Shown here piece after piece: positions 6,839-45,365 of a DNA stretch of 64,000 bases. Origin of the DNA: Pseudomonas sp. LS.1a (GTDB lineage: Bacteria; Pseudomonadota; Gammaproteobacteria; Pseudomonadales; Pseudomonadaceae); contig NZ_CP092827.1 of the NCBI RefSeq assembly GCF_022533585.1, positions 1,714,001 to 1,778,000 on the forward strand, read 5' to 3'. The stretch's first letter is position 1. Each line of letters opens with the position of its first letter. The notes below the pieces were generated by a model, which worked only from the letters and a program-made list of their open reading frames with translations, ran no database searches and was not told the DNA's origin. The translations under genes and the position numbers were made by a program.

Positions 6839-7579
6839 TCATCCTGCAATTGCCACCAATTCCTGAACCACCTGTTCCCCAACCACCTCCCCAATCACCA
6901 ATATCGCCGGGCTACGCAAGCCAAACCTCCGCGCATCCTCCACCATCCCCCGCACATCGCTCCTGCACTCCCGCTGCTGTGGCAACGATGCATTCTCGAT
7001 CATCGCCACCGGCATCCCCGGTGCCATGCCGCCGTCCAGCAACCCTTGGCGTACCTGCTCCAGCCTGGCCACGCCCATGTACACCACCAGCGTCGTCCCG
7101 CCCTGGGCCAAGGCCGCCCAGTTCAGCTCGCTGTCGTCCTGGGTATGTGCCGTGACCAGCGTCACGCCTCGGCTCACACCCCGTGAGGTCAGGGAAATCC
7201 CGCATTGCGTGGCGCCGGCCAGGCCGGCGGTGATGCCGTTGACCACTTCCACCTCGATGCCATGTCCCTGCAGCCACAGCGCCTCTTCACCGCCACGGCC
7301 GAAGATGCACGGGTCGCCGCCCTTGAGCCGTACCACGCAGCGCCCTTGCCGCGCATGGCGCAGCATCAGGCGCTGGATGAACGCCTGCGGCGTAGAGCGG
7401 CAGCCGCCGCGCTTGCCCACGGCAATCACCCGGGCCTGCGGGCAATGCTCCAGCACCGCCGGGTTGACCAGGTCGTCGATCATCACCACGGCGGCTTGCT
7501 GCAAGGCGCGTACAGCCTTGAGGGTGAGCAGTTCGGGGTCACCAGGGCCAGCACCAACCAGCCAGACTTTTGCATTCAT
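6839..7579 (-). CDS. cobA: Uroporphyrinogen-III C-methyltransferase (SUMT)
   Basis: This 246-residue SAM-dependent methylase makes precorrin-2 from uroporphyrinogen III, the branch point to sirohaem and cobalamin. Family signatures are visible: VGAGPGDPELLTLKA at the N terminus, VGKRGG, VVRLKGGDPCIFGRGGEE, and VNGITAGLAGATQCGISLTSRG. There is no CysG-type dehydrogenase/chelatase extension. It is the last gene of a minus-strand run nasA-kinase-cobA, 27 bases after the kinase gene. The context implies a sirohaem supply for nitrite reductase, although nirB and nirD are not here. Confidence 0.95.
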   Translation of the reverse strand: MNAKVWLVGAGPGDPELLTLKAVRALQQAAVVMIDDLVNPAVLEHCPQARVIAVGKRGGCRSTPQAFIQRLMLRHARQGRCVVRLKGGDPCIFGRGGEEALWLQGHGIEVEVVNGITAGLAGATQCGISLTSRGVSRGVTLVTAHTQDDSELNWAALAQGGTTLVVYMGVARLEQVRQGLLDGGMAPGMPVAMIENASLPQQRECRSDVRGMVEDARRFGLRSPAILVIGEVVGEQVVQELVAIAG

Positions 7580-7606: not shown

Positions 7607-9277
7607 TCAGCCCTTGAGCAGGGTGAGCAGCAATATCAGGTTGAACAGCAAGGACAGCAGGGCCAGGGTGCGCCAGACCTTCAACGGCTCGCGCTCCAGC
7701 AATGGCCGTGGCCGGCTGGGCAGTTCCTGGCGGTCGCCACGTTCGAGCAGCAGCAACCAGTGTTCGGCGGTTTCGAAGCGTTGCGCCGGGTCGGCTGCCA
7801 GCGCCTGCTGCAGGTTGTGCTGCAGCCACTCCGGCAGGTCGGGGCGGTAGCGTGCGGCGTTGACCGGCTGACCGAAGCGCGGCCGCTGGAAGGCCTCCAC
7901 CTCGCCGTACGGATAGTGGCCGGTCAGCAGGTGATAGAGCGTTACGCCCACGGCATACAGGTCCTGGCGTGGACTGGGCGGCAGGCCGTCGAACGCTTCC
8001 GGGGCAATGTATGACGGTGTGCCCGGCAACTCATGCTGCGGGTCTTCGGACAGGCCCGGGCAGTAAGCCAGGCCGAAGTCCAGCAGGCGCAGCTGGCCAT
8101 CGCTGCCCAGGTGCAGGTTCTCTGGCTTGATGTCGCGGTGCAGCAGGTTGCGCCGGTGCAGTACGCCGACCGCCTGCAGCAGTTGCCGGGCCAGCTCCAG
8201 CCACTGCGGCATGGGCAGCGGGCCGTGTTCGGCCAGCAGCGCCGCCAGACTCTGGCCGGGGTATTCGCGCATCACGTAGTACAGGTGCTGGCGCTGGCTG
8301 GCTGCGTGCAGTTCGGGGAAGTGCCGGCCAGCGACCCGGCGCAGGAACCACTCTTCCAGCAACAGCCCTTGTGCTGCGCCGGGCTCCTGCTCGCGTGCGG
8401 CGGGCAGGGTCTTCAGCAGCCAGGCTTGGCCCTGGCCATCGCGCACCCGGTACAGCAGTGACTGGCGGCTGTGCGAAAGCAGCTTTTCGGCTTGCCAGCC
8501 ATCGATGGCCTGGCCCTCACGCAGCGGGCCGGGCACCGGCCATTGCTGCAACTGCGCCAGGGTGTCACCCAGGTTGGCTGTGCCCAGTTGCTCGACCTGC
8601 ACCAGCAAGGCGCTGGCGTTGTCCTGGCTGCCGTTGAAGTGCGCGCTGGCGACCAGGGTGTCGACGGCCAGTTGCAGGTCGGGTTGCTCGCGCAGCACCG
8701 CCTGGATGTGCTGGTCGCCCAGGCTGGCCCATACGCCATCACTCAGCAACAGAAAACGCTCGCCTGGCTGCAGCTCGCCTTCCAGATAATCCACCAGCAG
8801 CTGCTGGTCCAGGCCCAGCGCGCGCTTGAGCACATGCTGCATGCCGGGCTGGTCCCACACATGGTCTTTACTCAGGCACTGCAGGCGCCCGGCGTGCCAG
8901 CGATACACGCGGCAGTCGCCTACGTGTGCCAGGGTAAAGCGCCGGCCACGCAGCACCAGCGCGCTGAGGGTGGTCAGCAATGGCTGGCCGTTACCTTGGG
9001 CACGCAGCCAGCGGTTCTGCGCCAGCAGCAGGCGGTCGAGAGCCTGGGGCACGCTCCAGGTTGCGGGGGTAGCGTAGTAGTCCAGGGCCAGCGCCTGCAG
9101 GCTGGCCCGGGCTGCCAGGCCGCCATCGGCACATTGGCTGACGCCGTCGGCGAGGGCGAACAGGTAGCCCTTGCTGGCGGCCAGCTCCGGCGCCGGGGTA
9201 ACCAGGCGCAGGGCGTCCTGGTTTTCCTCGCGTGGCCCGGTGGCGCTGGCCTGGGCAAAGCTCAGTTGCAGGCTCAT
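7607..9277 (-). CDS. PP2C-type phosphatase fused to Ser/Thr protein kinase, membrane-anchored
   Basis: This 556-residue two-domain protein has an N-terminal PP2C phosphatase (about 1-235) with GPREENQDALR, FALADGVS, LAHVGDCRVYR, LLSDGVW and QDNASALLV, all carrying the expected metal-binding Asp residues. A protein kinase domain follows (about 255-515): a weak glycine loop, a Lys in WLLKTLP, the catalytic loop HRDIKPENLHL, LLDFGLAY, GTPSYIAPE and DLYAVGVTLYHLLTG. One C-terminal membrane helix (about 530-552, LALLSLLFNLILLLTLL) would anchor it with both domains in the cytoplasm. It starts 9 bases after nasA stops, so it belongs to the nitrate transporter operon. Its substrate is unknown; the same gene adjoins nasA in P. 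aeruginosa. Confidence 0.92.
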   Translation of the reverse strand: MSLQLSFAQASATGPREENQDALRLVTPAPELAASKGYLFALADGVSQCADGGLAARASLQALALDYYATPATWSVPQALDRLLLAQNRWLRAQGNGQPLLTTLSALVLRGRRFTLAHVGDCRVYRWHAGRLQCLSKDHVWDQPGMQHVLKRALGLDQQLLVDYLEGELQPGERFLLLSDGVWASLGDQHIQAVLREQPDLQLAVDTLVASAHFNGSQDNASALLVQVEQLGTANLGDTLAQLQQWPVPGPLREGQAIDGWQAEKLLSHSRQSLLYRVRDGQGQAWLLKTLPAAREQEPGAAQGLLLEEWFLRRVAGRHFPELHAASQRQHLYYVMREYPGQSLAALLAEHGPLPMPQWLELARQLLQAVGVLHRRNLLHRDIKPENLHLGSDGQLRLLDFGLAYCPGLSEDPQHELPGTPSYIAPEAFDGLPPSPRQDLYAVGVTLYHLLTGHYPYGEVEAFQRPRFGQPVNAARYRPDLPEWLQHNLQQALAADPAQRFETAEHWLLLLERGDRQELPSRPRPLLEREPLKVWRTLALLSLLFNLILLLTLLKG

Positions 9278-9286
9278 GGCTGTGCC

Positions 9287-10498
9287 TCAGACCCGCGCCG
9301 CGGTAACCGCAGCCGAGCCCCAGGTGGTGCGCCAGCGCTGTTTCACGCCGTGCAGGCCGAACCAGGCCAGCAAGCCCAGGCTGGCGAACAGCCACAGCCC
9401 CAGTTGGTAGTCGCCGGTGTGCTGCTTGATGGTGCCAAGCCCGGCCGCCAGCAGGAAGCCTCCGATGCCGCCGGCCATGCCGATCAGCCCGGTCATCACC
9501 CCGATCTCCTGGCGGAAGCGTTGCGGCACCAGCTGGAACACCGCGCCATTGCCGGCGCCCAGGCCGAGCATGGCGCTGATGAACAGCGCCAGTGCGGCGG
9601 CTGCGCTGGGCAGGTTGAAGCCGACCGCCGCGATGCAGATGGCTGCCACGCTGTACATGCCCAGCAGGGTGCGGATGCCGCCGAAGCGGTCGGCCAAGGC
9701 GCCGCCGAGTGGGCGCATCAGGCTGCCGGCGAACACGCAGGCGGCGGTGTAGTAGCCGGCGGTGACCGGGCTCAGGCCATATTGGTCGCTGAAATAGCCG
9801 GGCAGGGCGCTGGCCAGGCCGATGAAGCCACCGAAGGTGACGCTGTAGAAGAACATGAACCACCAGCTGTCACGGTCGCCCAGGGCCTTGAGGTAGTCGG
9901 CCATGGCTTTTGGCTTGGGCCGCTGCGGAGCATTGCGTGCCAGCAGGGCGAATACCACCAGGGCCAGCGACAGCGGGATCAGCGCAAAGCCGAACACATT
10001 GTTCCAGCCAAAGCCTGCAGCCAGCGCCGGGGCCAGCAGGGCGGCGAACACCGTGCCGGAGTTGCCGGCACCGGCAATGCCCATGGCTTTGCCTTGGTGC
10101 TGTGGCGGGTACCACTGCGAGGCCAGCGGCAGTGACACGGCGAACGAAGCGCCGGCAAAGCCGAGAAACACGCCCAGCAGCAGCGCTTGTTCATAGCTAT
10201 GCACGCCCAGGTGCCAGGCAGCGGCGAGGGCGACGATGACTACCACCTGGCCGATCAACCCGGCGGTCTTGGGCGACAGGCGGTCGACCAGCACACCCAT
10301 GGCGAAGCGCAGCACCGCCCCGGCCAGGATCGGCGTGGCCACCATCAGGCCCCGTTGTTGTGCGCTCAGTTGCAGATCGGCGGCAATTTGCACTGCCAGT
10401 GGGCCAAGCAGGTACCAGACCATGAAGCTGAGGTCGAAGTACAGGAACGCGGCGAACAGCGTGGGCACATGCCCGGATTTCCAGAAGCTGGTACTCAT
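9287..10498 (-). CDS. nasA: Nitrate/nitrite transporter NasA (MFS, NarK type)
   Basis: This 403-residue major-facilitator protein has about twelve membrane helices. It contains the nitrate-porter glycine signatures MGIAGAGNSGTVFAAL in the fifth helix region and TGLIGMAGGIGGFLLAAGLG in the eleventh, separating NarK/NasA proteins from other MFS members. The single-unit length and the operon indicate nitrate uptake for assimilation. The start is ATG at 10498, with GAGGTG five bases upstream; the longer frame lacks a ribosome-binding site and would run into the leader terminator. Expression is probably controlled by the sigma-54-type promoter and the ANTAR-type attenuator described at 10530-10647. 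Confidence 0.94.
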   Translation of the reverse strand: MSTSFWKSGHVPTLFAAFLYFDLSFMVWYLLGPLAVQIAADLQLSAQQRGLMVATPILAGAVLRFAMGVLVDRLSPKTAGLIGQVVVIVALAAAWHLGVHSYEQALLLGVFLGFAGASFAVSLPLASQWYPPQHQGKAMGIAGAGNSGTVFAALLAPALAAGFGWNNVFGFALIPLSLALVVFALLARNAPQRPKPKAMADYLKALGDRDSWWFMFFYSVTFGGFIGLASALPGYFSDQYGLSPVTAGYYTAACVFAGSLMRPLGGALADRFGGIRTLLGMYSVAAICIAAVGFNLPSAAAALALFISAMLGLGAGNGAVFQLVPQRFRQEIGVMTGLIGMAGGIGGFLLAAGLGTIKQHTGDYQLGLWLFASLGLLAWFGLHGVKQRWRTTWGSAAVTAARV

Positions 10499-10529
10499 CG
10501 AACACCTCACTCGGCAATGCAGCGGAACG

Positions 10530-10581
10530 AAAAAGACGCCGCTACCCGCTCCACGGGGGTGGAGGGGAGAGCGACGTCTTT
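10530..10581 (-). terminator. Leader (attenuator) terminator of nasA
   Basis: On the minus strand AAAGACGUCGCU pairs with AGCGGCGUCUUU (one G-U pair), followed by UUUUUCGUU. It lies 31-83 bases before the nasA start codon, so it would stop transcription unless antitermination occurs. Its 5' arm shares bases with the second ANTAR-type hairpin. Confidence 0.85.
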
Positions 10582-10617
10582 GTCGGGGATTAAGTGGGGC
10601 AACCGCCGTTGGCTACC
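10572..10617 (-). promoter_or_regulatory. Two-hairpin ANTAR (NasT) target in nasA leader RNA
   Basis: First hairpin (10598-10617): stem GGUAGCC/GGUUGCC with hexaloop AACGGC. Second hairpin (10572-10585): stem CGAC/GUCG with hexaloop AAAGAC. Both loops have A at position 1 and G at position 4, the established recognition pattern of ANTAR-domain antiterminators. The linker is 12 nt. The second hairpin uses bases of the terminator's 5' arm, so the two structures exclude one another. Confidence 0.8.
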
Positions 10618-10631
10618 GGTGATATTTGTTC

Positions 10632-10647
10632 AGCAAGAGATGGGCCA
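10632..10647 (-). promoter_or_regulatory. Sigma-54 promoter for nasA
   Basis: The minus strand reads TGGCCC-N5-TTGCT, against the sigma-54 consensus TGGCAC-N5-TTGCW: the GG and GC doublets and their 10-base spacing are intact. The predicted transcript start is near 10621, just ahead of the two leader hairpins, and downstream of nasT. Confidence 0.65.
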
Positions 10648-10724: not shown

Positions 10725-11300
10725 TCACCCCAGCATCTCGTGCATGGCAATGATCTGCTCGGCCACCTGGATCAGCTTCTGCTGCCGGCTCATGGCCTGG
10801 CGGCGCATCAGGGTGTAGGCCTGCTCTTCGTTGCAGTCCTTCATCTTCATCAGCAAACCCTTGGCCTGCTCGATGCGCTTGCGCTCGGCCAGTTGCTGGT
10901 CGCGAGCAAGCAGCTGCGCCTTCAGCGCCTGGTCACTTTCGAAACGCGCCATGGCCACGTCCAGGATCGGCTGCAGCCGCGCGGCATGGATGCCTTCGAC
11001 AATGTAGGCGCTGACCCCCGCCTGGATCGCCTGGCGCATCACCCCGGGGTCGTGCTCGTCGGTGAACAGCACGATGGGCCGCGGCTGGTCACGGCTGACC
11101 AGCACCACCTGTTCCATCACATCGCGGTCTGGTGAATCGGTATCGATCAGCACTACGTCCGGGCGCACCGTTTCGACGCAGGCGGGCAGGTCGATGGTCA
11201 GGTCTGGCGCTTCGATGACCTCGAAGCCGGCCTCGCTCAATGCCGCCTTGAGGCGGCCGAGTTTGCTCCGGGTGTCGTCGATCAGCAGGATGCGCAACAT
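10725..11300 (-). CDS. nasT: NasT, nitrate-responsive ANTAR antiterminator
   Basis: This 191-residue protein has an N-terminal receiver-like domain (LRILLIDDTRSKLGRL, VVLIDTDSPDRD, VLFTDEHDPGVM) and a C-terminal ANTAR RNA-binding domain (about 130-185: RKRIEQAKGLLMKMKDCNEEQAYTLMRR split over two helices, then LIQVAEQII). In Pseudomonas and Azotobacter NasT binds leader RNA and lets polymerase read through a terminator when nitrate frees it from NasS. The start is ATG at 11300; the long upstream extension of the frame lies inside nasS. It follows nasS by 11 bases. Confidence 0.95.
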   Translation of the reverse strand: MLRILLIDDTRSKLGRLKAALSEAGFEVIEAPDLTIDLPACVETVRPDVVLIDTDSPDRDVMEQVVLVSRDQPRPIVLFTDEHDPGVMRQAIQAGVSAYIVEGIHAARLQPILDVAMARFESDQALKAQLLARDQQLAERKRIEQAKGLLMKMKDCNEEQAYTLMRRQAMSRQQKLIQVAEQIIAMHEMLG

Positions 11301-11311
11301 GGTGGTCCCCC

Positions 11312-12526
11312 TCACGCGCCGACACGGGCATCGGGCAGGTCGCCCAGGGCATGCAGGCTGAAACTGCGGGCATAACCGTAGGGGTCGCTGCCGTCCCAGC
11401 GGTTGCCGTCGATCAACAGGCTGCTGCGCATCGGCTGCTCGGGGCAGGCCACGCCCAGGCTTTGCGCTGCCTCGCCATAGAGTGCCAACTGCTGGACCTG
11501 GCGTGCCACGCCGAGATAGTCGGGGTCTTCGCGCAGCAGGCCCCAGCGGCGGAACTGGGTCATGAACCACATGCCGTCGGACAGGTACGGCAGGTTGGCC
11601 CGGCCGTGGTCGTGCAGGCGCAGGGCGTGCGGATCTTGCCAGTGGTTGCCCAGGCCATCGTGATAGCTGCCGAGCAGGCGCGGTTCGATACTCGCCAGCG
11701 GGGTGTCCAGGTAGGCGCTGCCGCTGAGCAGTTGCGCAGTGCTGCGGCGGTTTTCCGGGCTTTGCTCAATGAAGCGGCTGGCCGCGAGGACCGCCTTGAT
11801 CAGCGCGCGGGCGCTGTTGGGGTATTGTTCGGTGAAGGTGCGGGCGCAGGCCAGGACCTTTTCCGGGTGGTCCGGCCAGATCGACTGGCTGGTGGCCAGG
11901 GTGAAGCCTTGGCCCGTGGCCACTGCATCGGCGGCCCAGGGTTCGCCCACGCAGAAGCCGTCGATGCGCCCGGCCTGGATATGCGCGGCCATTTGCGCCG
12001 GCGGCACCACCACGCTGTCGACATCGCGCAGTGGGTGGATGCCCTGGCTGGCCAGCCAGTAATACAGCCACATGGCGTGGGTGCCGGTGGGGAAGGTCTG
12101 GGCGAAGGTGAGGCGTGCGCCATGCTGGTGCACCAGGCGCGCCAATGCTTCAGGGTTGGTCACGCCTTTGCGTTGCAGGGCCGGGGACAGGTTGATGGCC
12201 TGGGCGTTCTGGTTCAGCCCCATGAGCACGGCCATGGCACTGGCCGGTACACCGCCGATGCCCAGGTGCACGGCGTAGACCAGGCCATACAGGCAGTGCG
12301 CGGCATCCAGCTCGCCGCTGACCAGCTTGTCGCGCAGCCCGGCCCAGGAACCCTGGCGCTTGAGGTTGAGGGTAAGGCCGTGCTGCTGGGCGAAGCCCTG
12401 GGTGGCGGCGACTACCACCGAGGCGCAGTCGGTCAGGGCCATGTAGCCGATGTTCAGGCTGGGCTTTTCCGGCGCGTCGCTGCCGTTGACCCAGGCCAGG
12501 GGCGTTGCTCGGGGTACAGTGTTCAC
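11312..12526 (-). CDS. nasS: NasS, cytoplasmic nitrate sensor (NrtA/CmpA family)
   Basis: This 404-residue solute-binding-fold protein of the nitrate/sulphonate-binding (NrtA/SsuA) family starts [28 protein letters not shown] and lacks a signal peptide, which fits NasS, a soluble partner that holds NasT inactive without nitrate. GTG at 12526 was chosen because GAGGA lies seven bases upstream; an in-frame ATG at 12595 has no such site and overlaps the REP element. Other family segments are [27 protein letters not shown] and [12 protein letters not shown]. It is the first gene of a nasST pair. Confidence 0.93.
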
Positions 12527-12592
12527 AAGGTTCCTCGCCCGTACTGATAAGGCTGTGGGCTTCTTCGGTGCAACCGATGTGCCATCTGGCTT

Positions 12593-12680
12593 CATCGCCG
12601 GTAAGCCAGCTCCCGCAGGTACAGCGCAGGTTTCAGCCCTTGTGTTGTCCCTGTGGGAGCCGGCTTGCCGGCGATGGGCT
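12593..12680. repeat. Variant REP pair (GCCGG-type)
   Basis: TCGCCGGTAAGCCAGCTCCC and GGGAGCCGGCTTGCCGGCGA face each other. This is the variant REP family (CCGGC...GCCGG) rather than the CGCGGG type, lying between the divergent nasS and pyrD genes. Confidence 0.75.
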
Positions 12681-45189: not shown

Positions 45190-45365
45190 AGCTGCGCCGG
45201 GCTGGTTGCTGGGGAAACCCGCCACTTTCACTGCTTCATCCTGTGCCCTGTGGCGGATTGTCGCCACGCTCCCCGTCGCGAGCCCCCGTATTCATTGCTC
45301 GATACCCAGTTGGCACATTCCCTGCTCAAGGCGGCGCGCGTGTACACAACAACTGGATAACATCA

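Follow-up and report, generated by a model that had tools for sequence, protein, structure and literature searches.

Romeo et al., in 2012, reportedly described NasT antitermination of the nirBD operon of Pseudomonas aeruginosa, as their title has it. In Paracoccus, nitrate was reported to dissociate the NasS-NasT complex, and NasT to bind the nasA leader of P. denitrificans (PMC3795266). A chromosomal change in a leader hairpin of that organism was reported to abolish growth on nitrate (PMC5424462), and P. putida without nasT was reported not to grow on nitrate (PMC7261876). The RNA target of ANTAR proteins has been defined, by a rule that came from work on EutV, as dual hairpins whose hexaloops carry A at position 1 and G at position 4 (A1/G4), with the second hairpin (P2) overlapping the terminator in attenuators. 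This overlap was the criterion for an attenuator and applied to about 30% of the hits of that study (PMC3369931).

We analysed a stretch of 64,000 nucleotides (the window) from a Pseudomonas whose best named NasT matches are 96-98% identical and include P. inefficax (98%) and P. monteilii (97%), in a search that may omit the host's own record. This places the host near the P. putida group. The genes nasS and nasT lie directly upstream of the leader studied here and run in the same direction as nasA. The genes concerned, and the promoter-type site before nasS, are as follows.

6839..7579, minus strand: cobA-type uroporphyrinogen-III C-methyltransferase, third gene of the presumed operon (TP_methylase; TIGR01469, 300.4 bits, cut-off 185)
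7607..9277, minus strand: PP2C phosphatase-Ser/Thr kinase fusion, second gene of the presumed operon (Pfam PP2C_2, Pkinase)
9287..10498, minus strand: nasA, NarK-family nitrate/nitrite MFS transporter (MFS_1; TIGR00886, 317.5 bits, cut-off 311.7)
10725..11300, minus strand: nasT, receiver-ANTAR protein of 191 aa (profile match; the genome's only ANTAR match)
11312..12526, minus strand: nasS, NrtA-like, 404 aa from its likely GTG start (Pfam NMT1_2; NrtA structure 2g29, E 6.8e-67)
12569..12584, minus strand: sigma-54-type site before nasS, TGGCAC-N5-TTGCA (11/11 positions)

The likely nasS start, GTG at 12526, was chosen by inspection; the ORF tool begins the frame at 12595, and the perfect sigma-54-type site (12584-12569) falls inside the ORF called from there. 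Relatives of NasT with solved structures, as found by sequence search, include AmiR (1qo0) and NasR (4akk). The PP2C-kinase fusion (9277-7607) sits between nasA and cobA, and a role for it in nitrate assimilation is unexplained.

The leader lies in the nasT-nasA intergenic region, on the minus strand, and its parts, from upstream to downstream, are listed here.

10647-10632, minus strand: sigma-54-type promoter of the nasA operon, TGGCCC-ATCTC-TTGCT (sequence read; 10/11 scored positions)
10646-10571, minus strand: match to the Rfam narK RNA, RF03032 (Rfam search; 76.8 bits)
10621, minus strand: predicted transcription start, 12 nt past the -12 element (from promoter geometry)
10617-10598, minus strand: ANTAR-type hairpin P1, GGUAGCC-AACGGC-GGUUGCC, 7 bp, hexaloop AACGGC at 10610-10605 (fold and covariation)
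10585-10572, minus strand: ANTAR-type hairpin P2, CGAC-AAAGAC-GUCG, 4 bp, hexaloop AAAGAC at 10581-10576 (truncated-leader fold)
10581-10532, minus strand: intrinsic terminator stem-loop, whose 5' arm is the P2 loop plus the P2 3' strand (fold and covariation)
10534-10530, minus strand: terminator U tract (sequence)

The sequence-only reading had described a complete NasT-type antitermination switch here, with a TGGCCC-N5-TTGCT promoter, two hairpins with A1 and G4 in their loops, and a terminator shortly before nasA. We found each of these elements where it had placed them, the reading being correct base for base, and the U tract ending at 10530, upstream of the nasA ATG at 10498. The promoter has GG and GC at the -24/-12 spacing, its use by sigma-54 being presumed by analogy, and P1 and P2 are separated by a linker of 12 nt. 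The features used to recognise ANTAR dual-hairpin attenuators (PMC3369931) are present: tandem stems of at least 3 bp with 6-nt loops, A at position 1 and G at position 4 in both loops (AACGGC and AAAGAC), and an intrinsic terminator that overlaps P2. The genome encodes one ANTAR protein, NasT. As the P2 loop and 3' strand lie inside the 5' arm of the terminator, P2 and the terminator are mutually exclusive, as had also been claimed.

The alternative structures were obtained when the leader was folded in two lengths. At full length the leader forms P1 and the terminator (-44.8 kcal/mol, z -5.85), and none of 200 shuffles was as stable; the fold of the terminator has a z of -6.97. The leader truncated before the 3' arm of the terminator folds as P1 plus P2. 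The P2 hairpin is weak by itself (4 bp), and the stability of P1 plus P2 is no better than that of shuffled sequence (z -1.30; 20 of 200 shuffles as stable). This is expected if a protein must hold P2, yet it lends no support either. We also scanned the window on both strands for a pair of hairpins with A1/G4 hexaloops (stems of at least 4 bp) and a terminator overlapping P2 (at least 9 bp, at most 1 mismatch). The arrangement occurs in one place, the nasA leader, where the terminator has 15 bp; the same search on shuffled sequence gave 1 match in 30 shuffles of one strand.

We then compared the leader with its relatives. Two alignments (A1 and A2) each hold 48 rows: the window and 47 sites kept from 151 distinct ones on the basis of similarity and the presence of a T run. 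The sites had been picked by a regular expression that fixed the P2 core and the AANG of the P1 loop, so that the invariant columns are built in and the evidence lies in the variable pairs; the P2 core is conserved in A1, where it was also one of the selection criteria. The row labels of A1 are only approximate (NasA_L123, for instance, marks a nasS leader, and some rows labelled 'NasS' are NrtA-like), and no counts were based on them.

Across the 48 leaders of A2, P1 and the terminator covary. The P1 pairs hold in 93.7% of 221 cells (the outer P1 columns are gapped in most nasS rows), and 48 cells are changed on both sides, compared with 9.5 in shuffles. In the terminator, 91.1% of cells keep their pairing, and cells with both sides changed number 49, where shuffles give 18.8. 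For neither stem did any of 500 shuffles reach the observed number of such cells. When the partners were slid, pairing dropped to at most 67% for the terminator and at most 61% for P1. One of five covariation measures is weak for the terminator, the number of pairs with both-side change (5 versus 3.4; reached by 51 of 500 shuffles). The weaker measures for P1 are both-side-changed pairs, reached by 1 of 500 shuffles, and 'further pair types', reached by 11 of 500. In a third alignment (A3), whose loop register was guessed, A1 and G4 were found in 124 and 127 of 135 P1 loops and in 128 and 135 of 135 P2 loops; these counts hinge on the register, and positions 2 and 6 are equally conserved. The promoters of the other leaders line up with the sigma-54 site of the nasA leader.

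In many nasS leaders the P1 stem is broken after the two closing pairs, so that a simple detector requiring a perfect stem of at least 4 bp failed to find them; a model termed R1, with only 3 base pairs and rough E-values, took over. In the 85 loci picked on the basis of NasS, R1 gave 136 strong matches; 130 of these show a U tract together with at least 4 pairs linking the P2 half to the terminator 3' arm. The other six comprise one at the end of a fetched stretch, four lacking a TTTT run in the tested stretch and one lacking the pairing.

The nasA leader covers the whole Rfam narK RNA model (RF03032) at 76.8 bits, above the gathering threshold of 43.2 (E 5.4e-14). The only other Rfam match in the nasA stretch at E up to 10 was Hrs13 (E 6); P11 was not among the matches of this region at that limit. 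By sequence, the narK RNA is the nasA-type leader element. The first 15 positions of the model, GGCaCAgcucUUGCU, which Rfam leaves unpaired, are the sigma-54 site, so the 5' part of the model is a signal in the DNA rather than a piece of the RNA. P1 forms the stem of the model, and the unpaired 3' end, CGACAAAGACGUCGC, is P2, which is undrawn. The Rfam entry thus draws P1 alone as a stem, leaves promoter and P2 unpaired, and ends before the terminator.

We are confident that 10647-10530 on the minus strand is a NasT-controlled transcription attenuator of the nasA-kinase-cobA operon, working as follows. By analogy with the studied relatives, RNA polymerase with sigma-54 would start near 10621, which would provide the input from nitrogen limitation. 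When nitrate and nitrite are absent, NasS would hold NasT, the terminator would form and transcription would stop at the U tract. When either is present, NasT would be freed, and a NasT dimer would bind P1 and P2. With P2 held by NasT, the terminator would lose its 5' arm and transcription would enter nasA. The proposal of the known ANTAR mechanism, acting beside nasS and nasT, is supported by the covariation, by the adjacent NasT and by the co-occurrence of leaders and readers across genomes described below; binding by NasT itself is deduced from the relatives.

Two further leaders of this kind are present in the same genome. The first precedes a NasC-type nitrate reductase-flavoprotein fusion (G000:C1:1350704); it matches the narK model at 49.4 bits and also R1, and its fold agrees. 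The second precedes nirB (G000:C1:1354862), and its R1 match is weak (25.5 bits, E 0.0045). By eye and by fold, it has a sigma-54 site, the hexaloops AACGGC in P1 and AAAGGC in P2, and an overlapping terminator. Rfam P11 (RF00625) matches here too, at 36.9 bits (E 8.9e-7), below the gathering threshold of 70. Other narK matches in the genome score 23.2 bits and less. An R1 match at G000:C1:4148855 (L161; 27.1 bits, E 0.0018) was rejected as chance: it lies in a flagellar region, and inspection gave neither a P1/P2 pair nor a P2-overlapping terminator. As this rejected match outscores the nirB leader, the latter rests on its anatomy, fold, place and P11 match.

The leaders occur together with proteins that could read them. 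Among the matches listed, 91 of 99 Pseudomonas genomes bear a leader, 88 by narK (E up to 0.001) and G001, G018 and G041 by P11 alone. NasS or a NIT-ANTAR protein was found in 90 of these 91 genomes and in 0 of the 8 others, again among the matches listed (Fisher 5e-11). In 86 of the 90 there is a NasS match; G001, G018, G043 and G068 have a NIT-ANTAR protein. The narK match of G043 is weak (E 7.1e-4), and the assembly of G075 is 87% complete. One leaderless genome, G051, has two AmiR-type ANTAR proteins in an assembly with 9% contamination. The exception, G086, has a leader and no ANTAR match, and its nasC matches residues 1-118 and 1196-1282 only of the query; it looks as if its nitrate pathway were decaying, unless the assembly is at fault. 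The narK-type leader of this genome (L304), next to a nasC without most of its middle, is relic-like.

Across 398 genomes of the phylum, R1 matched in 37 and narK in 22 (E up to 0.001). We looked at 29 R1 loci from the phylum (L167-L195, some of them in the genus). A sigma-54-type site scoring at least 9 is present in 27, and a NasS-like, NrtA-like or NasA-like frame comes next in 27. A further leader of the class (L052, 7025-7109, minus strand, genome G008) stands before an NrtA-like gene that is 31% identical to NasS.

Leaders were also found before nasS-nasT. NasS is present in 86 of the 99 Pseudomonas genomes, and we surveyed 85 of them (G034, with a partial NasS match, was dropped), checking NasT by tblastn in the same 85. 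In the 400 bp before nasS, the R1 match was strong in 64, weak in 4 and lacking in 17. A sigma-54-type site of at least 9/11 lies upstream of nasS in 83 of the 85, the exceptions being G023 and G080. The leaders in 64 of 85 genomes suggest NasT autoregulation: NasT would antiterminate its own nasS-nasT operon through a sigma-54 promoter and a dual-hairpin leader, giving positive feedback.

The window belongs to the groups that lack this second leader. We found no narK or R1 match between the sigma-54-type site at 12584 and nasS; in its P. putida-like clade the nasS promoter is kept and the attenuator is absent. The repeats just upstream of this site are, we assume, REP-like. On the NasS tree (for which stops within the matched NasS segments were entered as X), leader presence needs 4 changes, and the starred branches force 4. 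The groups without a full nasS leader are the 14-genome clade of the window (12 with none, 2 weak), a 5-genome clade, and the tips G031 and G039, which hold remnants. We infer that the missing leaders are losses, since a different genus of the family has nasS leaders as well (L081, L082, L086). Leaders that look decayed with the sigma-54-type site kept were seen at L228, L259, L229, L112 (G039) and L140 (G031).

A comparison of 80 named loci agrees with this distribution. Upstream of nasT, R1 matched (E up to 1e-4) in 0 of 15 putida-like loci and in 58 of 65 others (L229 being weak); downstream of nasT it matched in 14 of 15 and 60 of 65. The putida-like loci are the first 15 rows, with NasT at least 90% identical, and the sequence of L204 is incomplete.

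The part of the mechanism that leaves most room for another reading is the promoter. The NasT attenuator might act as described, with transcription starting not, or not only, by sigma-54 but from another promoter or by read-through from nasST; we regard this as unlikely, though it deserves weighing. Work on P. putida KT2440 limited for nitrogen reported a nasA induction of 14.64-fold in the wild type that was largely retained, at 12.43-fold, in an rpoN mutant, and a fall of nasT induction from 7.25 to a non-significant 4.00 in that mutant (PMC7801951). The persistence of nasA induction makes sigma-54 doubtful as the sole route. Judged by a 12-position consensus, the 453 bp that precede the nasA promoter hold no NtrC-like site of at least 9/12; sites of 9/12 were found once upstream of nasS and once upstream of nasC, and 136 times window-wide. 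Against a start that bypasses sigma-54, a -24/-12 site precedes the hairpins in the nasA, nasS, nasC and nirB leader classes, and upstream of nasS it persists at loci whose attenuator is missing or decayed. In addition, 66 sigma-54 promoters have been predicted for the COG that contains NasT (PMC12316311). In the window, sites of at least 10/11 occur in 3 of 318 strand-blocks of 400 bp (nasA, nasS at 12584, and 45311 on the plus strand). The third of these, at 45311, scores 10/11 and reads TGGCACATTCCCTGCT.

Rfam P11, the family that the nirB leader matches below threshold, has matches above the gathering threshold of 70 in 58 of the 99 Pseudomonas genomes and at E up to 0.001 in 69. We aligned 18 sequences, 17 above-threshold P11 matches and the nirB leader of our own genome. 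Every one of the 18 has a sigma-54 site of 10/11 and the P2 loop AAAGGC, and 17 have AACGNN as their P1 loop. A frame like NirB (33-36% identity to our own) follows in each of the six P11 loci that were looked up (L276-L278, L282, L299, L300). P11 shares the design of the nasA leader in its sigma-54 site, its P1 and P2 loops and its P2-overlapping terminator, with a NirB-like gene downstream. It differs in a further hairpin, and Rfam pairs its promoter bases as an RNA stem. This extra A1/G4 hairpin lies between P1 and P2 in 17 of the 18 sequences, with the loop AGAGAA in 13, ATAGAA in 3 and AACGAT in 1. One P11-type leader was folded; it gave the terminator, and its truncated form gave all three hairpins. 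At L276-L290, L299 and L300, the extra hexaloop hairpin stands a few bases from P2.

Together, these comparisons incline us to a wider view, which we hold to be fairly probable: the narK RNA and P11 would form one class of NasT/ANTAR leader, nasST would be autoregulated in most of the Pseudomonas examined, with the positive feedback lost in at least four lineages including the clade of the window, and P11 would be the terminated nirB leader. P11 would then form under nitrogen limitation and become nirB mRNA once nitrate frees NasT. Among the titles and abstract openings found, in a search that did not take in Romeo 2012, Wang 2012, Weinberg 2017 or Marogi 2024, none names the narK RNA or P11 as a NasT leader, or nasST autoregulation.

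P11 has been discussed in other terms, and these bear on the nasA leader as well. It has been presented as an sRNA and credited with regulating the nitrogen assimilation operon of NirB, NirD and NasC, and was reported to be necessary and sufficient for the inherited avoidance of PA14 by C. elegans (PMC12080996). NfiR of P. stutzeri, reported as a P11 homolog, is said to be required for nitrogenase gene expression (PMC6606865). Our leaders are tied to the P11 of PA14 and to NfiR by the Rfam family name and not by sequence comparison. By this precedent, the nasA leader could be a stable trans-acting small RNA, the terminator being its 3' end and not part of an attenuator. We consider this very improbable, as the leaders stand in sense before nasA, nasS, nasC, nirB-like and NrtA-like genes, their terminator shares P2, and they co-occur with NasS or NIT-ANTAR proteins. 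The two roles are compatible, since the terminated leader of an attenuator might also work in trans. That the hairpins arose by chance near an ordinary nasT terminator can be dismissed, for, unremarkable as a terminator between nasT and nasA is in itself, this reading is refuted by conservation (z -5.85, Rfam E 5.4e-14, covariation, a single such place in the window).

The nasA switch is therefore correctly read and of a known kind, with a function that we infer from its relatives, and its surroundings are more interesting than the switch. The comparison gives the narK RNA and P11, which are catalogued apart, one mechanism, and corrects the boundaries of both models, part of each being a DNA promoter. 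If it is true, the amount of P11 should track nitrogen limitation and drop when nitrate frees NasT. This prediction bears on the disputed C. elegans behaviour, which depends on growth conditions. Pseudomonas with and without the NasT leader on nasST also offer a natural comparison.

Set beside the known systems, the closest is that of P. aeruginosa nirBD, where, going by titles, NasT antiterminates nitrate assimilation genes. Our own genome likewise has a nirB leader; the leader of the window differs in preceding nasA, and the two systems are likened by titles and not by sequence. The Klebsiella nasF leader, read by NasR, and the Enterococcus eut leaders, read by EutV, are alike in having A1/G4 hexaloop hairpins before a terminator (PMC3369931). 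They differ in the regulator, which in Klebsiella is the one-component NIT-ANTAR protein NasR and in Enterococcus the phosphorylated EutV (PMC3369931), whereas here it would be a NasT held by NasS.
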